8,614 nt of DNA from the NCBI GenBank assembly GCA_021770615.1, contig JAETQR010000082.1, positions 1 through 8,614 of the forward strand, written 5' to 3'. This DNA comes from Lachnospiraceae bacterium (GTDB lineage Bacteria; Bacillota_A; Clostridia; Lachnospirales; Lachnospiraceae). The position numbers were made by a program, and so were the translations under genes. Numbering within the stretch: position 1 is the stretch's first letter; every line of letters starts with the position of its first letter. This document shows, one piece after another, positions 1 to 8,614 of this stretch. A model generated the notes under the pieces. That model was not told the origin of the DNA. It saw nothing but the letters and a program-made list of their open reading frames with translations, and ran no database searches.

Positions 1-455
1 TGATACTCCCCGATTGTGACCGCCATATTCGGCTGTTTTGCGCTCCGGCACATATCAATCAGCGCTGCCCCGGCTTCCTTCTTGTCCGTATATACCCGGT
101 TCCCGATTTTTATGGAAAAAGTGTCTTTATCCGGGAATTTATTCTGTGCGTAGGTCTGAATGTCGGCACGATACCCCGCAAGGCGTTCTTTCATGGAAGC
201 GATCTGCACCGGGTAATGCTTCACGATGTTGTCCTCCAGACGGTACTTCTGGCTGGTGTGGTTCGCCTTCAACAGCTTTAGCTTGGATACCTGAATATCT
301 AAATCCATTTTTTCTTTAATATAGGGATTTCCTGTTGCCAGAGCTTTCACTTCTGCATAAGTGAGAGCCGCTTCGTCTATGTCCTCACAGCTTCTGACCG
401 GGGATTTGCTCGTCATAATCTGCCCAATGAATTTCTGCTTGTTCTCGATAAGCTG
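1..455 (-). CDS. Snf2-type helicase / N6-adenine methylase of a conjugative element, C-terminal part (3' exon, runs off the left edge)
   Basis: Read on the minus strand from 455, the frame begins QLIENKQKFIGQIMTSKSP and continues open to the window edge through segments such as DIDEAALTYAEVKALATGNP and KEKMDLDIQVSKLKLLKANH. I recognise this as the region just after the helicase C-lobe in the very large DEAD/SNF2 helicase-N6 DNA methylase proteins carried by Tn1549-like and related integrative conjugative elements. The frame continues in phase from 2810 once the intron at 456-2809 is removed, so this is the downstream exon of one gene. The 3' end lies outside the window. The family role is inferred to be in element maintenance or DNA processing; its precise reaction is not established here. 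Identification rests on recalled family sequence, not on a search. Confidence 0.8.
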
Positions 456-496
456 GTCGGGTAGGTCAGCGGTATTACTACCGCCTTCCCCCCTAA
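456..496 (-). ncRNA. group II intron domain VI with predicted branch-point A
   Basis: On the minus strand GGCGGTA pairs with TACCGCT across a GTAA loop. The outer GGGGGG arm pairs with CCT and CCC around an unpaired A at position 462. That bulged A lies 7 nt from the 3' end of the intron, counting itself, which is the usual place for the lariat branch nucleotide. The intron ends with AC at 457-456. Confidence 0.82.
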
Positions 497-530
497 GAAC
501 CGTGCATGAAGGTTTCCCCTCACACGGCTC
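497..530 (-). ncRNA. group II intron domain V (catalytic hairpin)
   Basis: The minus strand reads GAGCCGTGTG...CATGCACGGTTC, exactly 34 nt. It forms the classic helix GAGCCGUG / CACGGUUC, with a two-nucleotide bulge and a GAAA tetraloop context. This is the most conserved piece of the ribozyme and holds the catalytic metal-binding triad. It lies just downstream of the maturase stop codon, the standard position. Confidence 0.93.
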
Positions 531-536
531 AAGCAC

Positions 537-2207
537 TTATAAGCCCTGTGTCACCAGAGCCGGTTCACCAGTGTTTTTCAAGTAATGTAATGCCCTATGG
601 CATTCGGCATGTAACAACATTTTCTTTTCCCTGAAATCTGCCCCTGTCTCTGAATGGATTCGAAAGCCTCTCTCTACCGTGATTGCTTCTCCGCAATGAG
701 GGCAGATTCCCTTTTGCGCTTTGTAAAGAGCATTCAGCTTCTTTCTCCCGTTAATTTCACGAAACATCCTCTCTGTATCCCTGTCCTCGAAATACTCTGT
801 AAACCTGCTGTCAAATGGCGTTGCTTCTGATTTTGTTTTCAGCCACCGTATGATATTGGTGTCCGTGGCATAAATCAAGCGCAGTTCAAACGAATCTGAC
901 GTTTTAACGCTGAATGTCCAGCTTCGTGTGCCAGCCTGCCTAAAATATTTCTTTGCTATCCATTTGTGGCTCTTTTTCGGATGTCTGCGCTTACACCATT
1001 GCCACAGGCATCTCCAAACGTCAAAATCAAACCGTTCAAATGCCTGTGAAGAAACATTGTATTTCTGGAAATTTACCCAGCCACGGATGACCGGGTTCAG
1101 CTTGCGTATCAAATCCTCCTGCTTCATAGACGGATTTTTCTTGATTATCTCCCTTATCTTGCTTACTATGGCTTTATAATTCTTTTTAGATGGTTTTGTA
1201 AGAAGTTTGTCTTTGTACCACCTTATATTACTTCCGAGAAAATCAAATCCATTTTCGATATGGGTAATAACCGTCTTTTCTTCTGACAATTCTAATCCTC
1301 TCTCTGACAGAAATTCCCGGATTATCGGAAGCACACCATTTTCCAACAGTTCTTTGCTTTCGCCTGTAACGATAAAGTCATCAGCATAGCGAATAAAATT
1401 CACTTTCGGAAAATATACTCTCCCTTTTACCGTTCTCCGATGGTATCTATCTTTCAGTTCTTTTTCCAATCCATCCAATACCATGTTACAGATAGTTGGT
1501 GAAATAGCTGACCCCTGTGGGCTTCCCAATTCTGTCGGGAATAGCCGTCCGGTTTCAATGTATCCGCTTTTTAGCCATTTACGCAGGATATCCCTGTCCA
1601 TTGGGATATTATCCAGAATCCATTCATGGCTGATATTATCGAAACAGCCTTTGATATCTCCTTCTAACACCCACTTCGGGGATTTCCTTTTATTCAGACA
1701 GGTGAAACATTGCTCAATGGCGTCCTGCACACACCGTTTTGCCCGGAATCCGTAAGAATTCGGGTCGGCGGTGATTTCCGCAATCGGCTCCAATGCAAAT
1801 TTATATAATGTCTGCATTGCCCTGTCCTCCATGCATGGAATACTTAATGGGCGCATTTTTCCGTTTTTCTTCGGTATATACACCCTCTTTAGTGGCAGGG
1901 GCTTATATCCCCTGCGTTTCAAGCTGAGAATCGCTTCGTATTTCAGTTTTGGAGTAGACCATAATACTTTATCTACTCCTGCTGTTTTCTTGCCTTTATT
2001 ACTTGTCACCCTCTTTACGGCTAAAGCACGCCCGTAAAAAGAATGTGTGAGCAGCCACTGCAAGGATTTTACCTTGCCTGTCCTGCCCTGCTGATGAGCC
2101 TTTACGATACGCATTTGCAGTTTTTTAACATATGCTTCGGCTTTGTTCCAGTCAATCCTGTCCCAAGCCTTTGCAACGTCAGAAGTCGCACACGTTTTAC
2201 CGTTCAT
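537..2207 (-). CDS. ltrA: group II intron reverse transcriptase/maturase with HNH endonuclease
   Basis: The intron-encoded protein (556 aa) assists splicing of its own intron and copies it into DNA targets. The start chosen is the ATG at 2207, because AGGAG lies 8 nt upstream and the protein then begins with the usual maturase N-terminus (MNGKTCATSD). The open frame extends further up to 2435, but that part is intron RNA. Visible domains are: RT motifs at about residues 60-330, including D184 and D190 in GDIKGCFD, QGSAISP at 231-237 and the catalytic YADD at 274-277; the maturase/X thumb region at about 340-470; and a C-terminal HNH endonuclease with CPHCG at 502-506 and LLHAECHRALH near 531-541. 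Length and domain order are complete, with no frameshift, so the protein looks functional. The stop is 7 nt before domain V. Confidence 0.95.
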   Translation of the reverse strand: MNGKTCATSDVAKAWDRIDWNKAEAYVKKLQMRIVKAHQQGRTGKVKSLQWLLTHSFYGRALAVKRVTSNKGKKTAGVDKVLWSTPKLKYEAILSLKRRGYKPLPLKRVYIPKKNGKMRPLSIPCMEDRAMQTLYKFALEPIAEITADPNSYGFRAKRCVQDAIEQCFTCLNKRKSPKWVLEGDIKGCFDNISHEWILDNIPMDRDILRKWLKSGYIETGRLFPTELGSPQGSAISPTICNMVLDGLEKELKDRYHRRTVKGRVYFPKVNFIRYADDFIVTGESKELLENGVLPIIREFLSERGLELSEEKTVITHIENGFDFLGSNIRWYKDKLLTKPSKKNYKAIVSKIREIIKKNPSMKQEDLIRKLNPVIRGWVNFQKYNVSSQAFERFDFDVWRCLWQWCKRRHPKKSHKWIAKKYFRQAGTRSWTFSVKTSDSFELRLIYATDTNIIRWLKTKSEATPFDSRFTEYFEDRDTERMFREINGRKKLNALYKAQKGICPHCGEAITVERGFRIHSETGADFREKKMLLHAECHRALHYLKNTGEPALVTQGL

Positions 2208-2583
2208 TTGCTTTACTCCTTTCAAAAATTCTATAAATTCTCTCGTAATCAAGCACCACGCGGAATTGGGCACCCTTTCGGGCAGGGCAAATCTTGAACC
2301 CCTATCCGGCTTCATTACAAAGCCGGCATTCGCTTCTTCCGCAATCCTATACCCGCATTCCCAACGGCTTCCCTTACGGTCGGCTTGCCTTTGCAGGCGA
2401 GAATACGGGCTTGACACGTTCCACTTAATCAACAATTATCTGATAGTTTAGGTCCCACCTCTACTCCGGCAGTCTTATGTCCGTGTATTCCCAATGTGGA
2501 AGGGAATATCCGACTGCACACCTTTTGGTTCAAGCCTGTCAGCTACTTTGGCTTGTTCAGCTTTAACGAAGCTTACGGTGATT

Positions 2584-2590
2584 CAGTTAA
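2584..2590 (-). other. candidate EBS1 of the intron
   Basis: The minus-strand heptamer TTAACTG, about 220 nt into the intron, can pair with the last seven bases of the 5' exon, CAGTTGG (2816-2810). The duplex has five Watson-Crick pairs and two G-U pairs. Position and partner are as expected for EBS1-IBS1, the main target-recognition contact. The call rests on complementarity alone. Confidence 0.6.
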
Positions 2591-2666
2591 TTAACCATGC
2601 TATCAATAAAAAGCCTGCACCCTAACCGCCTTGTAGCTGGCAGCTTCATCCTCCCCTCACGGTTTG

Positions 2667-2671
2667 GATTC
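2667..2671 (-). other. candidate EBS2 of the intron
   Basis: Minus-strand GAATC, about 140 nt into the intron, is the complement of exon GATTC (2824-2820), which lies just upstream of the proposed IBS1. Order and spacing (EBS2 before EBS1, IBS2 before IBS1) fit the rule, but five base pairs is short and could be chance. Confidence 0.45.
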
Positions 2672-2809
2672 TAAATAGGGCTACGTTTATGCCCGCTTCC
2701 GAACAGTGCCATTACTGGCAGAGCCGGGGGCAACGGCTTCATCCAACGGAATGGATGGTTTGGTCGGTATTACCGCCAAACAGTTAAATTAAGCGACTTC
2801 GTGTCGCAC

Positions 2810-2824
2810 CCAACTGTACGAATC
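2810..2824 (-). other. intron target site in the 5' exon (IBS2-IBS1)
   Basis: The exon sequence GATTCGTACAGTTGG directly precedes the intron. Its GATTC and CAGTTGG parts are the proposed IBS2 and IBS1, three bases apart, matching the candidate EBS2 and EBS1. In the protein this is the conserved FDSYSW stretch after helicase motif VI, so the intron has entered a well-conserved part of a mobile-element gene. Confidence 0.55.
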
Positions 2825-2923
2825 GAATGTGCCTTCCGTCACATATCGGAATATTTTCACCTTGTCATTCATGTTGCCCTGTCTTAAAATCCGCCCTTCC
2901 TGCTGTTCAATGTCAGTCGGTCA
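2810..2923 (-). pseudogene. Snf2-type helicase fragment (exon upstream of the intron; 5' part missing)
   Basis: On the minus strand the frame reads PTDIEQQEGRILRQGNMND, followed by KVKIFRYVTEGTFDSYSW up to the intron. QQEGRILRQGN is helicase motif VI (QxxGRxxR), whose arginines contact ATP in this superfamily. In phase, a TGA at 2923-2921 immediately precedes the recognisable homology, and the sequence further upstream belongs to a different gene, the recombinase. The helicase has therefore been cut in the middle of its C-terminal lobe by insertion of another element, and the remaining part has no start of its own. It overlaps the last codons of the recombinase in another frame. The missing N-terminal part may lie past the right edge of the window. 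The gene is broken at this locus even if the intron splices. Confidence 0.78.
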
Positions 2924-4473
2924 TTTTTTGCGGACAGTTCAATACATACCATCCTTTTCTGTTCCCTGCTCCTGCGTTTGCTCTCGTTTGACTTCTCCCT
3001 CTGTATCCTCTTGGCACAAGCAGGACAATACTTCGATATTCCAGAGCCAGGGACATATTCAACGCCGCACACCGTACAGTGTTTGGCGGGCAACGCTGTC
3101 CACCGTTTCGTGGGTGTGATATGTAATTCACCGACAAAGCCGATGAATTTATAATAAATCTTGATTTCCTGTTTCACTGTTCCGTCTGCCATCTTCTCAC
3201 GCTCCGAAACAAGTATCTTGTCTATCAAGGCGTTTACAATGGTTGCGTCCAGTTCCTTAATGCCTTGGTAGTTGCGGATAAGGGAGAGGAAGTCACGGAT
3301 TCCCTGCGATTTCTCGTAGCTTTCATTGAGCGTTTCCGTTACTTTTTTCAGTCTTGCTTCAATTTCAAGCTGTTCTTTCTGGTATTTCCCCGACATCATC
3401 TCAAAATTCCGCTCGGTGATACGCTCCATGACCTTATCCTCATAGAGAGAGGAAAACAGCCTGTCAAGCTCCGCAAGGCGTTTGTTCAGCTTCTTTTGTT
3501 CTTTCTCCATTGCTTTCGCTTTGCTCTGGTCTGTTTCCGTGAGCCGCTTCTCAATCGCCCTCACCGCCCGCTTGTCATTCACCGCCATATCCGCAAAACG
3601 GTTGATGTCGGCAAGCACGGCGTTAAATAAATCCCTCGCTTCAATGGCGTGTGCGGTACACATAACATTGCCGTACCTGCCATAATTATTACAGGTGTAT
3701 TGTACGCAGTCGATGATGTCGGGGCGTTTCCTCCTGTTTGCGCTCATAGCCCGCAAAGCGTAGCCGCAGTCCGCACACTTGATAACGCCTGCAAAAATGT
3801 TCTCAAAGCCGCCCTTATTTTCGGGTAATCTGCGGCTTGTGATAAGCTGCTGTACAGTGTCAAATTCCTCCTGCGTGACTATCCCCTCATGGGTATCGGG
3901 TATCACTTCCCATTCTTCGGGCAGCTTCGAGGGGCGTTTCTTGCTTTTCATGTTGGCGGCAATCCGTTTGTAGCCCGCAAGGTTTCCCGCATATATCGGG
4001 CTTCTTAAAATGCCCCTTACACTGTTTTCGCTCCAAATATAGCGGTTTTCCTCGTTACCCTCAAAGTAACGCTCGTAACCTGTCGCCCCCTGCTCCGCCG
4101 CATAAGCGGCAGGGCGTAAAATATGCTGTTTATTGATGTGCTTGCGGATTTTGGAGATTCCATTTCCCTCTAATGCAAGTTCAAAAATCTCCCTTACCAC
4201 ATGGGCAACCTTATCATCTATCAGCAGGTGGTTATGGTCAGCAGGGTCTTTGATATACCCATAGGGTGCATACGTCCCCATGAATTTCCCCTGCTGAAAC
4301 CTCGCTCGGTACGCCGATTTTATCTTGACCGACACATCGGCAGAATACATTTCGTTTAGGATATTGCGAAATGGGGTGATGTCCATCGCCGATTTATTCA
4401 AGGTGTCCACGCCGTCATTGACTGCTATATACCTCACGTTATGCTCAGGGAAAAAGACTTCTGTATAATTCCA
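2884..4473 (-). pseudogene. large serine recombinase (TndX/TnpX type) lacking the catalytic domain
   Basis: Enzymes of this family cut and paste integrative elements using an N-terminal resolvase domain with a nucleophilic serine. Here homology starts abruptly at about 4473-4467 with YTEVFFPEHNVRYIAVNDGV, normally the end of the resolvase domain, and an in-frame TAA (4476-4474) precedes it. About 100-130 N-terminal residues, including the catalytic serine, are therefore absent. What remains is open for 517 codons from a GTG at 4437 (residue 1): the end of the catalytic core, the Recombinase domain (about 40-200, APYGYIKDP, SPIYAGNLAGYKR), a zinc ribbon with C221, C224, C249 and C260, a long charged coiled coil (about 280-400), and a second CxxC...CxxC zinc ribbon near the C-terminus. 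The last residues (RLTLNSRKGGF) and stop come from the interrupted helicase gene. No clear ribosome binding site precedes the GTG. It is probably inactive, though a DNA-binding remnant could be made. Confidence 0.82.
2915..2926 (-). other. probable end of the inserted element (recombinase attachment junction)
   Basis: Helicase-like coding (PTDIEQQEGR) begins at about 2920 and recombinase-element sequence lies to the right. The minus-strand junction reads AAATGACCGACT. TndX/TnpX-type recombinases are known to exchange strands at GA dinucleotides, and a GA is present at 2922-2921. The exact crossover base is an inference; the second end of the element is not in view. Confidence 0.45.
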
Positions 4474-4476
4474 TTA

Positions 4477-4509
4477 GAGAACATATATAGATATATACCC
4501 TATATAAAG
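4477..4509. repeat. AT-rich near-palindrome at the recombinase truncation point
   Basis: The plus strand reads gaacatatatagatatatac then cctatataaag. TATAT and ATATA units mirror each other. The run lies exactly between the lost 5' end of the recombinase and the terminator behind the sigma-like operon. It could be a deletion scar, a recombinase or excisionase binding site, or a leftover promoter. The sequence alone does not decide. Confidence 0.35.
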
Positions 4510-4511
4510 AA

Positions 4512-4537
4512 CAAGTGAGAAGCCTTTGACCTCTCAC
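4512..4537 (-). terminator. rho-independent-like terminator after the sigma-like operon
   Basis: On the minus strand GTGAGAGG (4537-4530) pairs with CTTCTCAC (4522-4515) over a seven-base loop, giving eight pairs with one G-U. TTGTTCTTT follows. It lies about 30 nt after the stop of the sigma-like gene at 4569, the right place to end that transcript. The U-tract is interrupted, so efficiency may be moderate. Confidence 0.6.
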
Positions 4538-4568
4538 CTAACATCCCATAGAATAACAGACTGAATTA

Positions 4569-4994
4569 TTATAAAATTTTCCGCAGTTTCTTACGCAAAT
4601 GAGATAACCTTGCATAGACAGCCCCTACCGTCAAATGCACAAGCAGCGCAATCTCCTTTGTAGAATAGCCATGCATTTTCAGCAATACGATTTGTAAAGT
4701 GCGTCTGTCTACCGTGGCTAAGGCAAGGTATAGATTTTCACTCTCAATCTCATCCAGTAAATCAGAAACAGACTTTACCTCCATCTGCTTCTCCTTGTCT
4801 ATCATATCCTCAAGATATTCTCCAAAATCACTTGTCCATCGGTAAAACCGCCTGTTGGAATTAAAATCTGCCCTATCGTCTGTGCGGATTTGTTCAATGA
4901 CCGTTTCATTAACGCCACACTCTCGCAAAACCTTTTCCTCAGCTTCTTTCCAGATGCGCCATTTCCTATCCTCTCGTCCGTGGTTGTATGCCAT
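4569..4994 (-). CDS. sigma-70 region-4-like regulator, 141 aa
   Basis: This is a small protein resembling the sigma-like Orf7-type regulators found near the integrase end of Tn916/Tn1549-family elements. The start at 4994 (MAYNHGREDRKWRIWKEAEE) is chosen because GGAGG lies 7 nt upstream; the frame is also open upstream to 5096 but without a comparable ribosome binding site. The N-terminal two thirds are charged and helical with no region 2. The C-terminus (about residues 85-141) is a sigma region 4 helix-turn-helix, including YSTKEIALLVHLTVGAVYAR followed by a basic tail LRKKLRKIL. It is the second of two sigma-like genes, 107 nt after the first, and is followed by a terminator. It probably controls element genes by binding DNA or RNA polymerase. 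A hairpin at 5006-5034 adjoins its ribosome binding site. Confidence 0.82.
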   Translation of the reverse strand: MAYNHGREDRKWRIWKEAEEKVLRECGVNETVIEQIRTDDRADFNSNRRFYRWTSDFGEYLEDMIDKEKQMEVKSVSDLLDEIESENLYLALATVDRRTLQIVLLKMHGYSTKEIALLVHLTVGAVYARLSHLRKKLRKIL

Positions 4995-5005
4995 GCTTTT
5001 TCCTC

Positions 5006-5034
5006 CAATCGGGATTTTAGTAAATCCAAGATTG
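5006..5034 (-). promoter_or_regulatory. hairpin adjoining the ribosome binding site of the 141-aa sigma-like gene
   Basis: On the minus strand CAATC (5034-5030) pairs with GATTG (5010-5006), and GGATTT with AAATCC, around an ACTA loop; a small internal loop separates the two helices. The 3' arm runs straight into GGAGG, so folding would partly hide the Shine-Dalgarno sequence. The sequence closely resembles the hairpin at 5623-5660 before the other sigma-like gene. Confidence 0.55.
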
Positions 5035-5053
5035 AGAGAGCTTAGGAATCGCC

Positions 5054-5085
5054 CCCTCATTTTCCCAAAGGAAAAAACAAGAGGG
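5054..5085 (-). promoter_or_regulatory. stable hairpin in the gap between the two sigma-like genes
   Basis: On the minus strand CCCTC (5085-5081) pairs with GAGGG (5058-5054), and an inner TTTTCC pairs with GGAAAA around a TTTG loop. No U-run follows on either strand, so it is not a standard terminator. It may stabilise or process the shared transcript, or pair alternatively with the hairpin that follows it. Confidence 0.4.
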
Positions 5086-5101
5086 CTGAACGCCATAAAA
5101 T

Positions 5102-5611
5102 TTAGTTCTCAATTATCGTCCTTAGCTTCGCAAGGATTTTGGCTTTGCGTTTGTTTACAACACTCTGCGTTATGCCTAACCGCAATCCGACTTCCCTCTC
5201 GGAAAGTTCCTCAAAGAAGATGGCTTGTATCAATGTCTGTTCGCCATCCGACAATAAAGGCAGGGCGACTTTCAACCTGTCCACCATCACCGCATGGATA
5301 ACGGTTTCCGCAACATTTACTGCTTCATCAACAATGAAGTCAATCACATTTCCCTCACTGTCTGTAAATCCCTCCAATGAAAGCAGCTTGTGGTTTGTGT
5401 CCAGTTTTTTCAGATAACGCCACCATTCTTTGTCCTTGTAGAAATCTGCATACTGTTCCCGCACGACTTCAAGCAAACAGCCCTGCACGGGGATAAACAG
5501 CTTGTCCAGATAACTCTGGTCGGATTCCCTGCGACAGCAGAAATCCTTATAGGACAGTTCCACATAGACATTGTTTTCTTTGATATATACTTTTCTTGGT
5601 GCATATTTCAC
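5102..5611 (-). CDS. sigma-70 region-4-like regulator, 169 aa
   Basis: A second helix-turn-helix protein of the sigma-like type seen in Tn916/Tn1549-family elements. The start is a GTG at 5611 (VKYAPRKVYIKENNVYVELS), preceded by GGAGG at 8 nt. The C-terminus (about residues 115-169, SDGEQTLIQAIFFEELSERE followed by GLRLGITQSVVNKRKAKIL) is a region 4 helix-turn-helix. The N-terminal part, with WWRYLKKLD near residue 60, has no domain I recognise. It lies upstream of the 141-aa gene in the same transcript. The frame is open without a stop up to an ATG at 5809, so a longer 235-aa form is possible. It probably regulates element transfer or excision genes, but its targets are not visible here. With the recombinase broken, part of that role may be lost. 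Confidence 0.8.
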   Translation of the reverse strand: MKYAPRKVYIKENNVYVELSYKDFCCRRESDQSYLDKLFIPVQGCLLEVVREQYADFYKDKEWWRYLKKLDTNHKLLSLEGFTDSEGNVIDFIVDEAVNVAETVIHAVMVDRLKVALPLLSDGEQTLIQAIFFEELSEREVGLRLGITQSVVNKRKAKILAKLRTIIEN

Positions 5612-5809
5612 CGTATTTTCCTCCAATCCGAATTTTTGAAGATGTAAAAATCCAGATTGGAAAGGCGGGGAGCGGCAATGAACACCAGAAACAGCCCTGC
5701 GGCACATTCCGATAAAAAACGACAAAAGAAAAACCGCAAAGGCTCTGTGACCTCTACGGTTATAGGAGATATGTATTCTGATAAGTGGAGATTCTACTTC
5801 TGGTTTCAT
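5612..5809 (-). other. open reading frame in phase with the 169-aa gene (possible coupled small protein or N-terminal extension)
   Basis: From an ATG at 5809 the frame reads MKPEVESPLIRIHISYNRRG, then a hydrophobic stretch AFAVFLLSFFIGM, and runs without a stop into the sigma-like gene at 5611. There is no ribosome binding site of its own, but its ATG overlaps the TGA of the 42-aa ORF upstream as ATGA, a common coupling arrangement. It could be translated as a 66-residue extension, giving a 235-aa protein with a possible membrane segment, or it may be an untranslated leader that merely lacks stops. I do not recognise a domain. Confidence 0.35.
5623..5660 (-). promoter_or_regulatory. long hairpin adjoining the ribosome binding site of the 169-aa sigma-like gene
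   Basis: On the minus strand CCAATCTGGATTTTT (5660-5646) pairs with AAAAATTCGGATTGG (5637-5623): fifteen continuous pairs including two G-U, with an eight-base loop. The 3' arm ends within TTGGAGG, so the stem includes the GG of the Shine-Dalgarno sequence 8 nt before the GTG start. This is the strongest of the three SD-linked hairpins in the block and has no U-tract, which suggests control of translation, not termination. Confidence 0.65.
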
Positions 5810-5934
5810 GGTGAAAAGTAGCGTTGCATAAGCAGGGATTTTTTTGACTGGCTTCCTGCCAATCCCCGATATGCTATATATAAGTCAATTCTGTATTGCA
5901 TGAACAGATAGGTTACTACCCGAAAAAAGGACAT
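5806..5934 (-). CDS. small ORF, 42 aa, possible leader peptide
   Basis: ATG at 5934 is preceded by GGAGGG at 8 nt, one of the better ribosome binding sites in the window. The product starts MSFFRVVTYLFMQYRIDLYI and ends LLMQRYFSP, with an aromatic, weakly hydrophobic first half and a basic second half. Its TGA overlaps the next ATG (5809). The ribosome binding site lies in the 3' arm of the hairpin at 5943-5973, and the U-run of that hairpin is the spacer before the start. This resembles a leader peptide whose translation is tied to the RNA structure, as known in principle for attenuated genes in Tn916-type elements. I recognise no homologue; it may also be a chance or relic frame. Confidence 0.45.
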   Translation of the reverse strand: MSFFRVVTYLFMQYRIDLYIAYRGLAGSQSKKSLLMQRYFSP

Positions 5935-5973
5935 AAAAAAATCCCTCCAAACTTTAAAAACAAAGTTAGAGGG
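5935..5973 (-). terminator. terminator/attenuator hairpin with seven-U tract
   Basis: On the minus strand CCCTC (5973-5969) pairs with GAGGG (5947-5943), and AACTTT with AAAGTT, around a GTTTTT loop; seven T follow (5941-5935). It lies about 80 nt behind the radical SAM stop and so can end that operon. It also lies directly ahead of the 42-aa ORF and the sigma-like genes on the same strand, and it contains the GGAGGG that serves the small ORF. It could therefore act as an attenuator for the downstream block. Confidence 0.72.
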
Positions 5974-6051
5974 TAATTAAGGTACAGCAATACAGCCCAT
6001 CGAACATCGTTTTTTTTATTCAATGGACGTATTTGCCTTCTCACAATTTAT
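5974..6051 (-). other. spacer between the radical SAM gene and the sigma-like block, possible promoter
   Basis: I see no gene here. A weak promoter-like pair exists on the minus strand: TTGTGA (6046-6041), a 17-bp spacer, then TTGAAT (6023-6018), each four of six to consensus. It would serve the small ORF and sigma-like genes. An eight-T run at 6010-6017 on the plus strand is not preceded by an obvious stem. The base composition becomes AT-richer to the right of this stretch. Confidence 0.25.
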
Positions 6052-6885
6052 CTATTGATTATTTAATTTTTCCTTAACAAGTTTTTCATGGTAAAAGTAA
6101 TTGACATAATTTAATCCCAGTTCATCACAATACGTGTTGAGCAAATCAGCCAACGTATTCCAATATGCACTATCTTTATTTAAATAAATTGCTTCATATT
6201 TTTCTTTTAAGTCTGGATAGTGTGTATTGATATAAGAGAGGATACTGCTTTTGTATGCACCTCTAAGATTCAGATTTTCAAACCAATATTCACATACATT
6301 CTCTTTCGTACCATCAATGATGTCTTTCCATTCTGTGATATACGGAAAAATAGGAGACATAAACAAAACCGTATGGATACCCACATTATGTAATTTCTCT
6401 ATCGCATGAAGCCTGTCCTTTATCGAACCGCCTTTATCCATATCCGCCCTAAAATTGTCATCTAAAGTGTTGATTGAAAATGCCACTTTGAGATTGGACA
6501 TCCTTTTCAATAATTCTATATCCCGTAAAATAAGCGTTGATTTTGTTGAAATTGTAAGTTGGCAATCTGCATCCACAAGCTGTTCTAATATCTTTCTTGT
6601 GATGCCGTATTTCTCCTCATAAGAATTATAACAATCTGTTACAGACGACATAAAAACAGATTTTCCCTTTAATCTCTTTAGGTTAATAGGTTTTTCACAC
6701 TGCTTAATGTCTATAAATTTCCCCCATTCTTCCTTATGCCCTGTAAATCTTTTCATAAATCTTGCATAGCAGTATTTACAAGCATGGGTACAGCCGACAT
6801 AGGGATTTATCACATAATCACTTGCTGGCAAATTTGATTTCGTTAAATAGTCCTTCGTATTTATTTTTTGTTCTATAATATCCAT
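6052..6885 (-). CDS. radical SAM protein, spore photoproduct lyase-like (SPL family)
   Basis: A 277-aa soluble protein. The radical SAM cluster motif is clear in NPYVGCTHACKYCYARFM: C32, C36 and C39 would bind a [4Fe-4S] cluster and cleave S-adenosylmethionine to a 5'-deoxyadenosyl radical. Other family-like stretches are KSVFMSSVTDCYN, LTISTKSTLILRDIELL, VAFSINTLDD and HTVLFMSPIFPYITEW. This set matches the SplB-related radical SAM proteins of DNA-repair type, but the substrate is unknown and many relatives are not photolyases. The start at 6885 directly follows the TAG of the XRE/DUF5680 gene with no gap, indicating coupled translation; a GGAGG lies 13 nt upstream, inside that gene. A terminator follows about 80 nt downstream. 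Codon and base use are AT-rich, unlike the recombinase and helicase, suggesting separate origin. Confidence 0.85.
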   Translation of the reverse strand: MDIIEQKINTKDYLTKSNLPASDYVINPYVGCTHACKYCYARFMKRFTGHKEEWGKFIDIKQCEKPINLKRLKGKSVFMSSVTDCYNSYEEKYGITRKILEQLVDADCQLTISTKSTLILRDIELLKRMSNLKVAFSINTLDDNFRADMDKGGSIKDRLHAIEKLHNVGIHTVLFMSPIFPYITEWKDIIDGTKENVCEYWFENLNLRGAYKSSILSYINTHYPDLKEKYEAIYLNKDSAYWNTLADLLNTYCDELGLNYVNYFYHEKLVKEKLNNQ

Positions 6886-7560
6886 CTATTGAATCACGCC
6901 TCCATGAAAATAACATTCATAAATTTTTTCATCCAAATAAAAAATATCTTCGTACCCTTGAAACCAAACAAATTCACCATCTACTTTACAATGATAATGG
7001 TAATCGCCTTTTGTATACATTTGTGGTCCCCGATAAGGAAATTTTTCCGTAACCTGCAACAAAACTTCTTTCAAAAAGCCATTGTTAAAATTATCCCCTA
7101 TAACCCGACCAGTATAATTCATGCACCAAATAGGATTATCATAGTACCATACCGCTTCTTCACCAGTAAATTTTTCGCCGCCTAAATATGTATCGTAATA
7201 TTTATACTCATTTTCCGCATAACAAAAATCACTGGATTTCATTCGGGAAGATTGCACTTTATTTTCATTGATTGGATAAGTATTCTTTTTTGCAGAAACC
7301 AAAAAGGAAACAACTTTATTGAGGTCAATGTCCACACTCTTACATAATAAAATGTTGCACTCATCATCATCTTTCACTATTCTGTCAATGGTTACGCCAT
7401 ATAATTCGCTTAATAATATCAAGCCATTCAATTCTGGAATTGCCTGTCCGTTTTCCCATTTGCTTACAGTCTGCCTTGCTATCCCAATCTTATCTGCCAG
7501 TTGTTCTTGGGAGTAACCATTCTTCTTCCTTAGCATTTGCAATTTTTCTTCTAAATTCAT
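6886..7560 (-). CDS. XRE-family HTH regulator with C-terminal DUF5680 domain
   Basis: A 224-aa protein. The start at 7560 (MNLEEKLQMLRKKNGYSQEQ) is chosen because GAGGTGAT precedes it at proper spacing; the frame could extend three codons further to a GTG that lies inside this binding site. Residues 5-62 form a canonical Cro/CI helix-turn-helix with SQEQLADKIGIARQTVSKWE as the recognition region. Residues about 82-224 match what I recall of DUF5680: FLVSAKKNTY, YYDTYLGGEKFTGEEAVWYY, MNYTGRVIGDNF, PYRGPQMYTKGDY, and the ending WFQGYEDIFYLDEKIYECYF. That domain may sense a ligand or modification state, but its function is not established. The gene is first in a two-gene unit with the radical SAM gene, and may repress its own promoter. 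Confidence 0.88.
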   Translation of the reverse strand: MNLEEKLQMLRKKNGYSQEQLADKIGIARQTVSKWENGQAIPELNGLILLSELYGVTIDRIVKDDDECNILLCKSVDIDLNKVVSFLVSAKKNTYPINENKVQSSRMKSSDFCYAENEYKYYDTYLGGEKFTGEEAVWYYDNPIWCMNYTGRVIGDNFNNGFLKEVLLQVTEKFPYRGPQMYTKGDYHYHCKVDGEFVWFQGYEDIFYLDEKIYECYFHGGVIQ

Positions 7561-7581
7561 ATATATCACCTCTAAAATAAC

Positions 7582-7587
7582 ATTATA
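7582..7587 (-). promoter_or_regulatory. -10 box of the XRE/radical SAM operon
   Basis: The minus strand carries a perfect TATAAT in CATATATAATGTT, about 22 nt before the XRE start. At 17-18 nt further upstream only a poor -35 (GTGGCT/GGTGGC) is present, so activity may need an activator or be weak. The AT-rich dyad around it could be the regulator's own operator. Confidence 0.45.
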
Positions 7588-7626
7588 TATGTTTTCTTAT
7601 GGAAAGCCACCACGGGAAGTAGGCAA

Positions 7627-7680
7627 TTATGCCACCCTTAATATGCAAAAGTGAATTTTCTGCTGAATGTTGTCTTTCAT
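7627..7680 (-). other. 17-codon reading frame directly after the dehydrogenase
   Basis: An ATG directly abuts the TAA of the dehydrogenase gene and opens the frame MKDNIQQKIHFCILRVA, ending in TAA. There is no strong ribosome binding site. Immediate stop-start contact can allow re-initiation, so a micropeptide or leader for the XRE operon is possible, but so short a frame easily arises by chance. The rest of the 7561-7680 gap holds the -10 box and a short GGCATAATTGCC dyad. Confidence 0.2.
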
Positions 7681-8475
7681 TTAACCTACTTGACGTTGTT
7701 TTCCTAACATCATCTTACTAATATAATCAACGAATCTATTTGGTAGGATGTAAGATGACATAACGAGTATCTTATTGTAAATTCCTGCCACGACTATCGT
7801 TTTTCTTTTCATAACAGCTTTATAAGCTATATCAGCAACCCGTTCTGGCGACATAACAAACAATTTAAATAATAAAGTATCTTCCATGCCTGCTTTAGCT
7901 GCAAATTCTGTTTTTGTAGAACCTGGGCATAGAGTTGTGATTGTTACGCCAGTGCCTTTGAGTTCTGAACTAATTCCTTTTGACACAGATAAAATATATG
8001 ATTTTGTTGCCGCATAAACAGCATCATAGGGACATGATATGTAAGAGCCTGTTGAACCAATATTTAAAATCTTTCCCTGCTTGTTATCTACCATTGAGGG
8101 CAGGAATAATTTCATCATATCTGTTACAAAAAACATATGTAAGTACATCATATCATGCTCTTTTTCCCTGCTTGTTTTAATAAAACTTCCAAACTCATTA
8201 AAACCCGCATTATTAACAAGCACATCAATTTTCAAATCCAATTCCTGTACTCTACGGAATACATATTCAGCGGCTTCTGGCTTTTCTAATCCATAAACAA
8301 TGAAAACTGATTTTATGCGGAAAGTCTGCGACAGATGATTTGATAATTCTTTCAATTTATCCTTATTTTTTGCTACCAAAATCAAGTTGTAACCTTGCTG
8401 TGCAAATTTGACAGACAGAGCCTTTCCTATTCCGCTTGTACAGCCTGTTATCAAAGCTATTTTATTATTTTTCAT
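7681..8475 (-). CDS. short-chain dehydrogenase/reductase (SDR, DltE/YqjQ-like)
   Basis: A classical-type SDR of 264 aa, expected to be a cytosolic NAD(P)H-dependent oxidoreductase; the substrate cannot be told. The start is the ATG at 8475 (MKNNKIALITGC), preceded by GGAGGG at 7 nt; a TTG six codons upstream lies over that binding site. The Rossmann glycine motif TGCTSGIG is at residues 10-17, NNAG at 88-91, the catalytic serine at about S141 (STGSY), and Y154-x3-K158 in YAATK, followed by CPGSTKTEF at 183-191. Two points are odd: the position usually holding Asp before Leu after strand 3 reads YGLEKP (G62), and the helix-4 Asn of the catalytic tetrad seems to be His (YLHMFF, H113). It is AT-rich like its neighbours. 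A short hairpin GGTAG/CTACC (8518-8500) lies upstream of its ribosome binding site. No clear terminator follows. Confidence 0.88.
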   Translation of the reverse strand: MKNNKIALITGCTSGIGKALSVKFAQQGYNLILVAKNKDKLKELSNHLSQTFRIKSVFIVYGLEKPEAAEYVFRRVQELDLKIDVLVNNAGFNEFGSFIKTSREKEHDMMYLHMFFVTDMMKLFLPSMVDNKQGKILNIGSTGSYISCPYDAVYAATKSYILSVSKGISSELKGTGVTITTLCPGSTKTEFAAKAGMEDTLLFKLFVMSPERVADIAYKAVMKRKTIVVAGIYNKILVMSSYILPNRFVDYISKMMLGKQRQVG

Positions 8476-8614
8476 ATGCAATCCCTCCGACAAGTTCTTG
8501 GTAGTGTCAAATCCTACCTGATTTTTTGTTACTCAAACCTTGATTTTATGGGAGTTTGCAAATAAAAGAGCATTGACCTCCCTTTTTATGGTATAATGTC
8601 AATCGCCAAACCAA
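8476..8614. other. region upstream of the dehydrogenase, no gene seen
   Basis: This holds the GGAGGG binding site of the dehydrogenase, a GGTAG/CTACC hairpin (8500-8518) and, on the minus strand, TTGACA at 8602-8597 without a good -10 at 17 nt. GGGAG (8551-8555) and CTCCC followed by five T (8578-8587) could make a weak plus-strand terminator with a long loop. I see no convincing minus-strand promoter for the dehydrogenase. Confidence 0.3.
8589..8597 (+). promoter_or_regulatory. extended -10 promoter reading out of the window to the right
   Basis: TGGTATAAT (TGn plus perfect TATAAT) lies on the plus strand. A TTGACC box is present at 8573-8578 but only 13 bp away, too close for a normal -35, so recognition would depend on the extended -10. 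It would drive a divergent gene beyond the window edge, which cannot be seen. Confidence 0.4.

Follow-up and report, generated by a model that had tools for sequence, protein, structure and literature searches.

The stretch of DNA examined here, 8,614 nucleotides (nt) of contig JAETQR010000082.1 (assembly GCA_021770615.1, positions 1 to 8,614) from a Lachnospiraceae bacterium, is called the window throughout. It carries on its minus strand two adjacent genes for sigma-70-like proteins of 169 and 141 amino acids (aa), preceded by a leader made of RNA hairpins and short open reading frames (ORFs). It is this leader, and the way in which it may control the two genes, that concerns us. Read in the direction of transcription, its features and those of the genes are as follows.

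5943..5973, minus strand: hairpin 1, the 3' arm of which holds the Shine-Dalgarno (SD) sequence of ORF1, GGAGGG, followed by A-U7 and the ORF1 ATG (from folding, and from conservation with a variable 5' arm)
5806..5934, minus strand: ORF1, the upstream leader ORF of 42 aa (length kept, coding signal weak)
5839..5845, minus strand: candidate dnaX-type -1 frameshift heptamer A AAA AAA within ORF1, with an SD-like AGGAA upstream at 5853-5857
5663..5809, minus strand: ORF2 frame, its ATG (5807-5809) overlapping the ORF1 stop (ATGA), reading to Cys-Arg-Ser-Pro-Pro (CRSPP) (from substitution ratios and stop counts)
5732..5761, minus strand: intrinsic terminator-like hairpin in the ORF2 region, with a 12-base-pair (bp) stem and a U-rich tail (from a terminator scan)
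5663..5677, minus strand: CRSPP codons TGC CGC TCC CCG CCT, a candidate arrest site just before the main anti-SD arm
5622..5661, minus strand: hairpin 2, occluding the SD of the 169-aa gene (arms 5646-5661 and 5622-5637; SD GGAGG at 5620-5624)
5102..5611, minus strand: 169-aa sigma-70-like gene with a GTG start (sigma region 4 at the C terminus, Pfam PF04545, 2.2e-08; PDB profile match)
5051..5086, minus strand: terminator-like hairpin between the sigma genes, without a U run in the window, with a CTTTT-like tail in most relatives displayed, and absent from the scan list
5006..5034, minus strand: hairpin 3, occluding the SD of the 141-aa gene, homologous to hairpin 2 and without an RSPP motif
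4569..4994, minus strand: 141-aa sigma-70-like gene (Pfam PF08281, 9.3e-09)

Both proteins match sigma region 4, the part that binds the -35 element, above the cut-off of the respective family. For region 2, which binds core polymerase and the -10 element and marks sigma-70 factors, no family match was found in either gene. The PDB profile match of the 169-aa protein is to residues 144-236 of FliA/sigma-28, with an alignment that runs from about residue 68-76 on. Its predicted structure is of low confidence (pLDDT 60.9), and a Foldseek search with this model returned nothing at E <= 0.001, the top-ranked entries being sigma factors. Behind the distant sigma genes of seven relatives (loci L100, L103, L146, L149, L102, L115 and L121) a common CTTTGAAAATTGAATA-like stretch follows the terminator. 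It resembles an extended -35 element and may be the target of these region-4 proteins.

The initial annotation of this DNA had placed three hairpins on the minus strand, at 5943-5973, 5623-5660 and 5006-5034, touching or containing the SD sequences, and refolding agrees with it. Hairpin 2 has a 16-bp stem and two outer pairs; the 91-nt leader in which it sits folds at -24.9 kcal/mol, with a z of -3.1 and two of 200 shuffles equally stable. For hairpin 3, with its 5+6-bp stem, z is -1.2 (23 of 200 shuffles equally stable), and for hairpin 1 it is -1.9 (3 of 200). Among the three, single-sequence folding gives a clear excess over shuffles for the 169-aa leader only; the earlier claim that the hairpins lie beyond chance stands, for the rest, on the comparison of relatives given below. 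Hairpins 2 and 3 being homologous copies, the duplicated control module that had been suggested before the two sigma genes is borne out, and the count of three independent cases falls. Hairpin 1 has the look of an intrinsic terminator, its 3' arm serving also as the SD of the 42-aa ORF: a run of five to nine U and an SD in the 3' arm of a hairpin precede that ORF in all 27 unique upstream sequences displayed, of 36. A simple terminator scan did not have it (5943-5973) on its list. What the initial annotation overlooked is the leader peptide, the 5732-5761 terminator in the leader and the possible frameshift site.

With the 169-aa protein we recovered 80 loci, mostly from Lachnospiraceae and other Bacillota. 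The sigma ORFs found at E <= 1e-8 numbered 255; 24 with no SD by the rule used were dropped, and the remaining 231, many of them near-identical, were reduced by de-duplication at 80% to 81 or 80 leaders, the order of comparison differing between runs. Control genes came from the same loci. Their first set held 141-aa-like genes, and cleaning brought it from 462 to 357, or 194 after de-duplication. The SD pairs with upstream sequence above 0.8 in 213 of the 231 scored sigma ORFs, in 65 of 81 after de-duplication, and in 34 of the 194 cleaned and de-duplicated control genes. Against shuffles, the minimum free energy of the 80 de-duplicated leaders has a mean z of -3.9 (below -2 in 66 of them), and mean SD pairing is 0.90 observed versus 0.69 in the shuffled leaders. 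When the relatives are grouped at 50% aa identity, median SD pairing exceeds 0.8 in 23 of 30 clusters. In relatives at 25-35% aa identity the SD is closed again though the arm sequences are unrelated, by CCTCCGTTTAATTTG...CAAATTGAACGGAGG in L101 for example, or by TCCTCCTTTTTT...AAAAAGGAGG in L104 and L108.

In the 46 distinct rows of the close clade 92.7% of the hairpin 2 stem cells are paired, and one stem pair alternates between C-G (23 rows) and A-U (11 rows), both sides changed, with 11 mismatches. The covariation of the stems, proposed earlier as a check, came out divided. The covariation score lies above all 500 shuffles and double-change cells number 11 versus 5.0 in column shuffles, while the pairs with a double change, of which there is one, are no more than column shuffles give; the SD-side arm of the stem is not free to vary. 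Taken as a whole, the comparative evidence settles that the hairpins are real and conserved. Two kinds of variant occur. In L104, L105, L106, L108, L110, L112 and L113 the 3' arm of the leader's terminator-like hairpin (AAGTCCTCC with T6-7) doubles as the anti-SD arm, so that in those seven leaders the terminator-like and SD hairpins are mutually exclusive. The hairpin 2 loop of L015 and of L031 (upstream of 3001) holds an inserted piece a few dozen bases long that has inverted repeats of its own.

Over the anti-SD arm lies a peptide motif. CR[SG]PP is read there in frame in 46 of 80 de-duplicated leaders and in none of 191 control leaders, these taken from the control set before removal of the 141-aa-like genes; in 50 dinucleotide shuffles of the set it turns up in a mean of 0.02 of 80 leaders, and in one at most. 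The wider R[SAG]PP is present in 54 of the 80, RAPP and RGPP occurring as variants. In the predicted fold of the window, the second proline codon of CRSPP pairs with the SD. Across the 45 CRSPP leaders all 18 synonymous codons are used (six for Arg, six for Ser including TCN and AGY, four for each Pro, two for Cys), in 32 distinct 15-mers that may have as few as 7 of 15 nt in common. Exchange between TCN and AGY with the peptide kept is hardly explicable by base pairing, which makes it very likely that the frame is translated and that its product matters. Selection very likely acts on the CRSPP peptide, and over the anti-SD arm the leader, to judge by its codons, very likely codes for an RxPP nascent peptide that is under selection.

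The frame around the motif behaves in keeping. In the window family the ratio of non-synonymous to synonymous change (pN/pS, by NG86) is 0.54 for ORF2, the two other forward frames scoring 1.34 and 0.90, and ORF2 is free of stops for 50 codons in all 53 sequences. An intact 42-codon ORF1 was the condition for including these sequences, a bias on the openness of ORF1 but not on that of ORF2. ORF2 is open in frame into the sigma gene in the window, and in relatives it stops in or after hairpin 2. We rejected the idea that it is a plain N-terminal extension of the 169-aa protein, as many relatives have its end in the loop or at the GTG, or have it in a different frame. It carries a hydrophobic stretch, AFAVFLLSFF, partly encoded by the U tract of the terminator. 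In two annotated records that we inspected CRSPP is present, and no leader ORF is annotated before the sigma gene.

R[SAG]PP is the majority state in 15 of the 30 clusters, and 6 others have a leader that ends in YP-stop. This second class (L102, L121, L149, L162, L233 and L235; 6 of 80 leaders) reads W...YI(A)RYP-stop inside the anti-SD arm. TnaC is an arrest leader of the Pro-stop type, of which the YP-stop class is reminiscent; its sequence is different, and a like function would be putative. In a third class, found in L169, L175, L246 and L252, the peptide read across the anti-SD arm is AP(A/P)(D/E)F-like or related and the SD has the form AGGAG; this class was not scored as RxPP.

The place of the motif is fixed. 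Over the 54 R[SAG]PP leaders the first proline codon lies 42 nt before the SD (median, spread 3.3), and the anti-SD arm extends from +4 to +16 (medians) of that codon; it would be the piece of mRNA that a ribosome stalled with Arg-x-Pro in its P site holds. In a footprint model of these leaders SD pairing is 0.97 when the mRNA is free, 0.62 with a ribosome at RSPP and 0.97 with a ribosome 25 nt upstream (n=54). As an account of hairpin opening the model is suggestive and no more. A conserved structure that occludes the SD, a motif conserved at the level of the peptide and a fixed placement of the one over the other make an arrest leader the best explanation of the locus, and we consider it likely, well short of certain, that a leader akin to those of SecM and ApdA gates the sigma-like genes of this mobile element; what we infer is that the ribosome arrests, that this opens the hairpin, that a frameshift occurs and that there is an inducing signal.

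Plain translational coupling would do with less. Ribosomes that do not arrest would read the upstream ORF through the hairpin and reinitiate at the SD, or melt it, and RSPP would have no special role. The ends of the frames are in keeping with this. In none of the 63 window-family sequences with a usable ORF2 does that frame stop before the hairpin 2 loop (the count excludes L039, where the hairpin is deleted, L013, which is broken, and L021, L026, L048 and L058, with no ORF2 by the rule); the stops lie in the loop, at the sigma start in a GTGA overlap, or beyond, or else the frame is fused. The tandem 141-aa gene, too, retains its hairpin without the motif. Among the unique intergenic sequences (59 examined), 58 have a short frame starting at the terminator ATG, which enters that hairpin in 57. 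Coupling gives no account, however, of CRSPP being kept through every synonymous codon and at a constant distance from the SD, nor of R[SAG]PP in 15 of 30 clusters or of the YP-stop leaders, and the peptide read from the frame before the 141-aa gene is not conserved. We regard coupling without arrest as unlikely.

With an arrest leader, events might run as follows. By default, hairpins in the mRNA would conceal the SDs of the sigma-like genes, and the intrinsic terminator inside the leader would restrict transcription. A leader peptide would be made in the ORF2 frame, fed by a -1 frameshift on A AAA AAA, by a start at the ATGA overlap, or by both. Translation would proceed to Cys-Arg-Ser-Pro-Pro and pause there, the tunnel holding Arg-Ser-Pro and the A site the next Pro. 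The paused ribosome would cover the anti-SD arm, freeing the SD of the 169-aa gene and allowing its translation, and ribosomes following closely behind RNA polymerase should also impede the leader terminator. The tandem 141-aa hairpin, devoid of an arrest motif, would probably be opened by ribosomes coming from upstream.

How the ribosome enters the motif frame brings in ORF1. It is exactly 42 aa long in 65 of 81 sequences, and its pN/pS (NG86) of 0.59 is a weak signal, the two remaining forward frames giving 0.86 and 0.74 and the reverse ones 0.59-0.75. The constant length speaks against a chance ORF, though the coding evidence is weak; the chief role of ORF1 may be to form the front part of a frameshifted leader. 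The heptamer of E. coli dnaX is A AAA AAA or A AAA AAG. In all 53 unique intact ORF1s a slippery heptamer of the form X XXY YYZ lies in the ORF1 frame, so placed that a -1 shift would lead into the downstream RSPP frame (46 AAAAAAA, 7 AAAAAAG). Over 54 leaders, A6[AG] heptamers in and out of register number 22, 5 and 9. An AGGAA stands just upstream in at least 47 of the 53, about 7-9 nt before the shift site, depending on the way of counting; the published distance for SD-like stimulators of -1 shifts is 9-14 nt (PMC5009743). Of the 14 window-type leaders with R[SAG]PP, 12 contain the heptamer, always 57 codons before RSPP; the other two are L011 and L022 (the latter an incomplete locus). In L030, L053 and L146, which have no ORF2 ATG, the RSPP frame opens right at the heptamer, and the N termini of ORF1 are unlike one another. 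The pattern is less clear in other families, and L109, L153, L206 and L242 speak against a frameshift in every one of them, as does the L190/L198/L218-type group, most of which has ORF1 in the other frame relation. On these sequence patterns we give a -1 frameshift from ORF1 into the RSPP frame about even odds. The arrangement is like that of dnaX and of -1 frameshifting in insertion sequence (IS) elements, where an SD-like sequence likewise stands a few nt upstream of the heptamer (PMC5009743); unlike dnaX, the putative shift would here join two leader ORFs and deliver an arrest motif.

The 141-aa paralogue offers a comparison within the family. By tblastn, 77 of the 80 loci hold a relative of it, which in most cases follows the first gene after 95-111 nt. 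We compared hits that aligned from the first five residues and had at least 200 nt upstream and a GGAG, de-duplicated afterwards. Relatives that stand alone have the motif in all 14 leaders (12 RSPP, 1 RAPP, 1 RSPT) and also show SD hairpins; tandem copies behind a 169-aa gene, as in the window, have it in none of 10. Lone copies having the motif and tandem copies lacking it, hairpin 3 of the window is probably a copy of the hairpin 2 module that lost its arrest frame under a shared leader. A small ORF before the 141-aa gene was considered as a conserved peptide and dropped, its frame not being conserved. The initial annotation had proposed that a shared factor, such as an RNA-binding protein or a stalled ribosome, could switch all three hairpins. 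The stalled ribosome is the better of its two suggestions, given the RSPP-type motif that relatives conserve in a fixed position over the anti-SD arm and that lone 141-aa relatives have as well. A single factor opening all three is not supported: the motif of the window is over hairpin 2 only, tandem 141-aa copies have it in none of 10 leaders, and the hairpin of the 42-aa ORF is terminator-like.

A number of facts weigh against an arrest leader, or against parts of it. Base composition accounts for part of the SD pairing, shuffled leaders often pairing their SD (0.69) because they are rich in CCUCC-like sequence. Seven of the 30 clusters lack a median SD pairing above 0.8, and nine have neither R[SAG]PP nor YP-stop. 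L039, L050 and L075 are natural leaderless variants, in which the leader is deleted or replaced beside an open sigma frame that persists (L082 and L086 duplicate the loci L039 and L050), and in L031, with its insert in the hairpin 2 loop, the motif is broken to RSPL and SD pairing is lost. The motif frame has no ATG, GTG or TTG in some relatives, L153 among them; L109, L153, L206 and L242 have A7 in register, and no ORF1 start was found in the frame needed. One reverse frame over ORF2 also has a low pN/pS (0.58), but it has stops in 53 of 53 sequences. With the modelled ribosome in place the SD is on average still 0.62 paired, falling below 0.3 in 6 of 54 leaders only; this partial opening arises because other pairings form. 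A scan for promoters of the sigma-70 type performed no better than on shuffles and gave no hit on the coding strand of the leader. Finally, RSPP is weaker than RAPP or RGPP in ApdA and ApdP (PMC12992588, PMC7897499).

The terminator in the leader invites two further readings. Hairpins similar to that at 5732-5761 are visible by eye in relatives. ORF1 and ORF2 could form an attenuator that senses an antibiotic or an amino acid, in the manner of erm, tet or mef leaders, a drug-stalled ribosome preventing the 5732-5761 terminator. There are indeed leader ORFs with a terminator among them, and in a related Streptococcus suis element the tetracycline genes tet(O) and tet(40), for ribosome protection and efflux, are immediately upstream of the same two sigma-like genes; an RSPP arrest could itself be modulated by drugs. 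Set against this, no drug-specific stalling motif was recognised, none having been searched for, and the upstream genes vary. Such an attenuator is compatible with an arrest leader rather than exclusive of it, and in its own right it seems to us quite improbable.

The other reading starts from IS10, IS50 and IS200, which are protected from outside transcription. Here the terminator and the SD hairpin would silence read-through, and an internal promoter, its transcript starting within the hairpin and lacking the 5' arm, would give the active mRNA. Terminator-like and SD hairpins do occur together before the sigma genes inspected, by eye and by scan, and the genes upstream of the leader differ from locus to locus. 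From the terminator to the hairpin, however, the scan of the coding strand gave no promoter of sigma-70 type, and a conserved peptide over the anti-SD arm is not something that protection predicts; we hold it to be very improbable.

Published arrest systems resemble the proposed arrest leader in several respects. RxPP (x being Ser, Ala, Gly or Pro) was selected from random libraries as ribosome-stalling (PMC7897499, PMC12992588), and RSPP retains part of the arrest in ApdA and ApdP and belongs among the strongly avoided tetrapeptides (PMC12992588, PMC7897499). Elongation factor P (EF-P) is reported to give no relief of ApdA and ApdP arrest (PMC12992588). SecM-secA, ApdA, ApdP and ApcA likewise have an upstream ORF (uORF) with an R-x-P-P core, or RAGP/RAPG (PMC10987492, PMC7897499, PMC10951233, PMC12992588), and in SecM a stem-loop hides the downstream SD, the stall being positioned so that the ribosome breaks the stem and releases the SD of secA (PMC10987492). 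The leaders described here have several marks of RxPP arrest uORFs, namely a conserved core, selection on the peptide, and an SD stem-loop under the would-be stalled ribosome. Unlike SecM and the Apd proteins, they precede genes with sigma region 4 on mobile elements, not sec or yidC, which sets them apart from the class that monitors Sec and YidC by way of a protein-localisation target gene; their core is mostly RSPP after Cys, they hold an intrinsic terminator, and they range from about ten codons to a multi-ORF array. Two uORFs of Streptomyces lividans, SLIV_33595 and SLIV_33605, are RAPP-like and upstream of a sigma gene (there of the extracytoplasmic function type); unlike ours, they are predicted four-transmembrane proteins of an actinomycete (PMC12992588). 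The copper-responsive uORF CruR is another case of RAPP arrest controlling something other than Sec; it differs in being a DUF2946 protein that senses copper through CXXC and acts on Rho-dependent termination (PMC9426467). Among the open-access papers searched we found none that joins an arrest peptide, a mobile genetic element and a sigma factor. Open-access work on RSPP and arrest peptides was localisation-linked or proteome-wide only, and among the matches listed for conjugative elements, leader peptides, upstream ORFs, Tn916, frameshifting and arrest none was, by title or start of abstract, on this leader.

As to the surroundings, the minus strand of the window holds in order a short-chain dehydrogenase/reductase gene, an XRE regulator, a radical S-adenosylmethionine (rSAM) gene, the leader with the sigma-like genes, a serine-recombinase ORF and a group II intron. 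The nearest NCBIfam model for the rSAM gene is rSAM mobile pair B, with a score under its cut-off. The recombinase ORF (2884-4437, minus strand) matches Recombinase, zinc-ribbon and DUF4368 domains, and the domain search of the window proteins gave no match to the catalytic resolvase domain in it; its front may be cut off, perhaps at an element boundary near 4440-4500. The intron lies downstream of this ORF at 456-2758 (minus strand), with Rfam matches at 456-532 and 2618-2758 and a reverse transcriptase/maturase between them. These two matches are the only ones in the window to reach the Rfam gathering score, and near the leader there are six sub-threshold ones only (E 1.7 to 5). The sigma-like genes sit on a mobile element of Bacillota type. 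Two scans of a viral collection with single proteins returned no relative.

If the arrest leader is real, a large group of Bacillota mobile elements would carry a SecM-like leader before a sigma-like gene. RxPP arrest peptides would then extend beyond the control of protein localisation and into Bacillota, and the element would read the ribosome. A 2025 paper reports RAPP/RGPP uORFs to be absent in many Gram-positives, Bacillota included (PMC12992588); a search tied to these two forms would, we infer, miss leaders that are mostly RSPP. More tentatively, and with doubt prevailing, Bacillota mobile elements may share a translational switch on their sigma-like regulators, gated by a frameshift and an arrest peptide, that would directly sense the state of translation in the host, be it elongation, EF-P or ribosome-targeting drugs.

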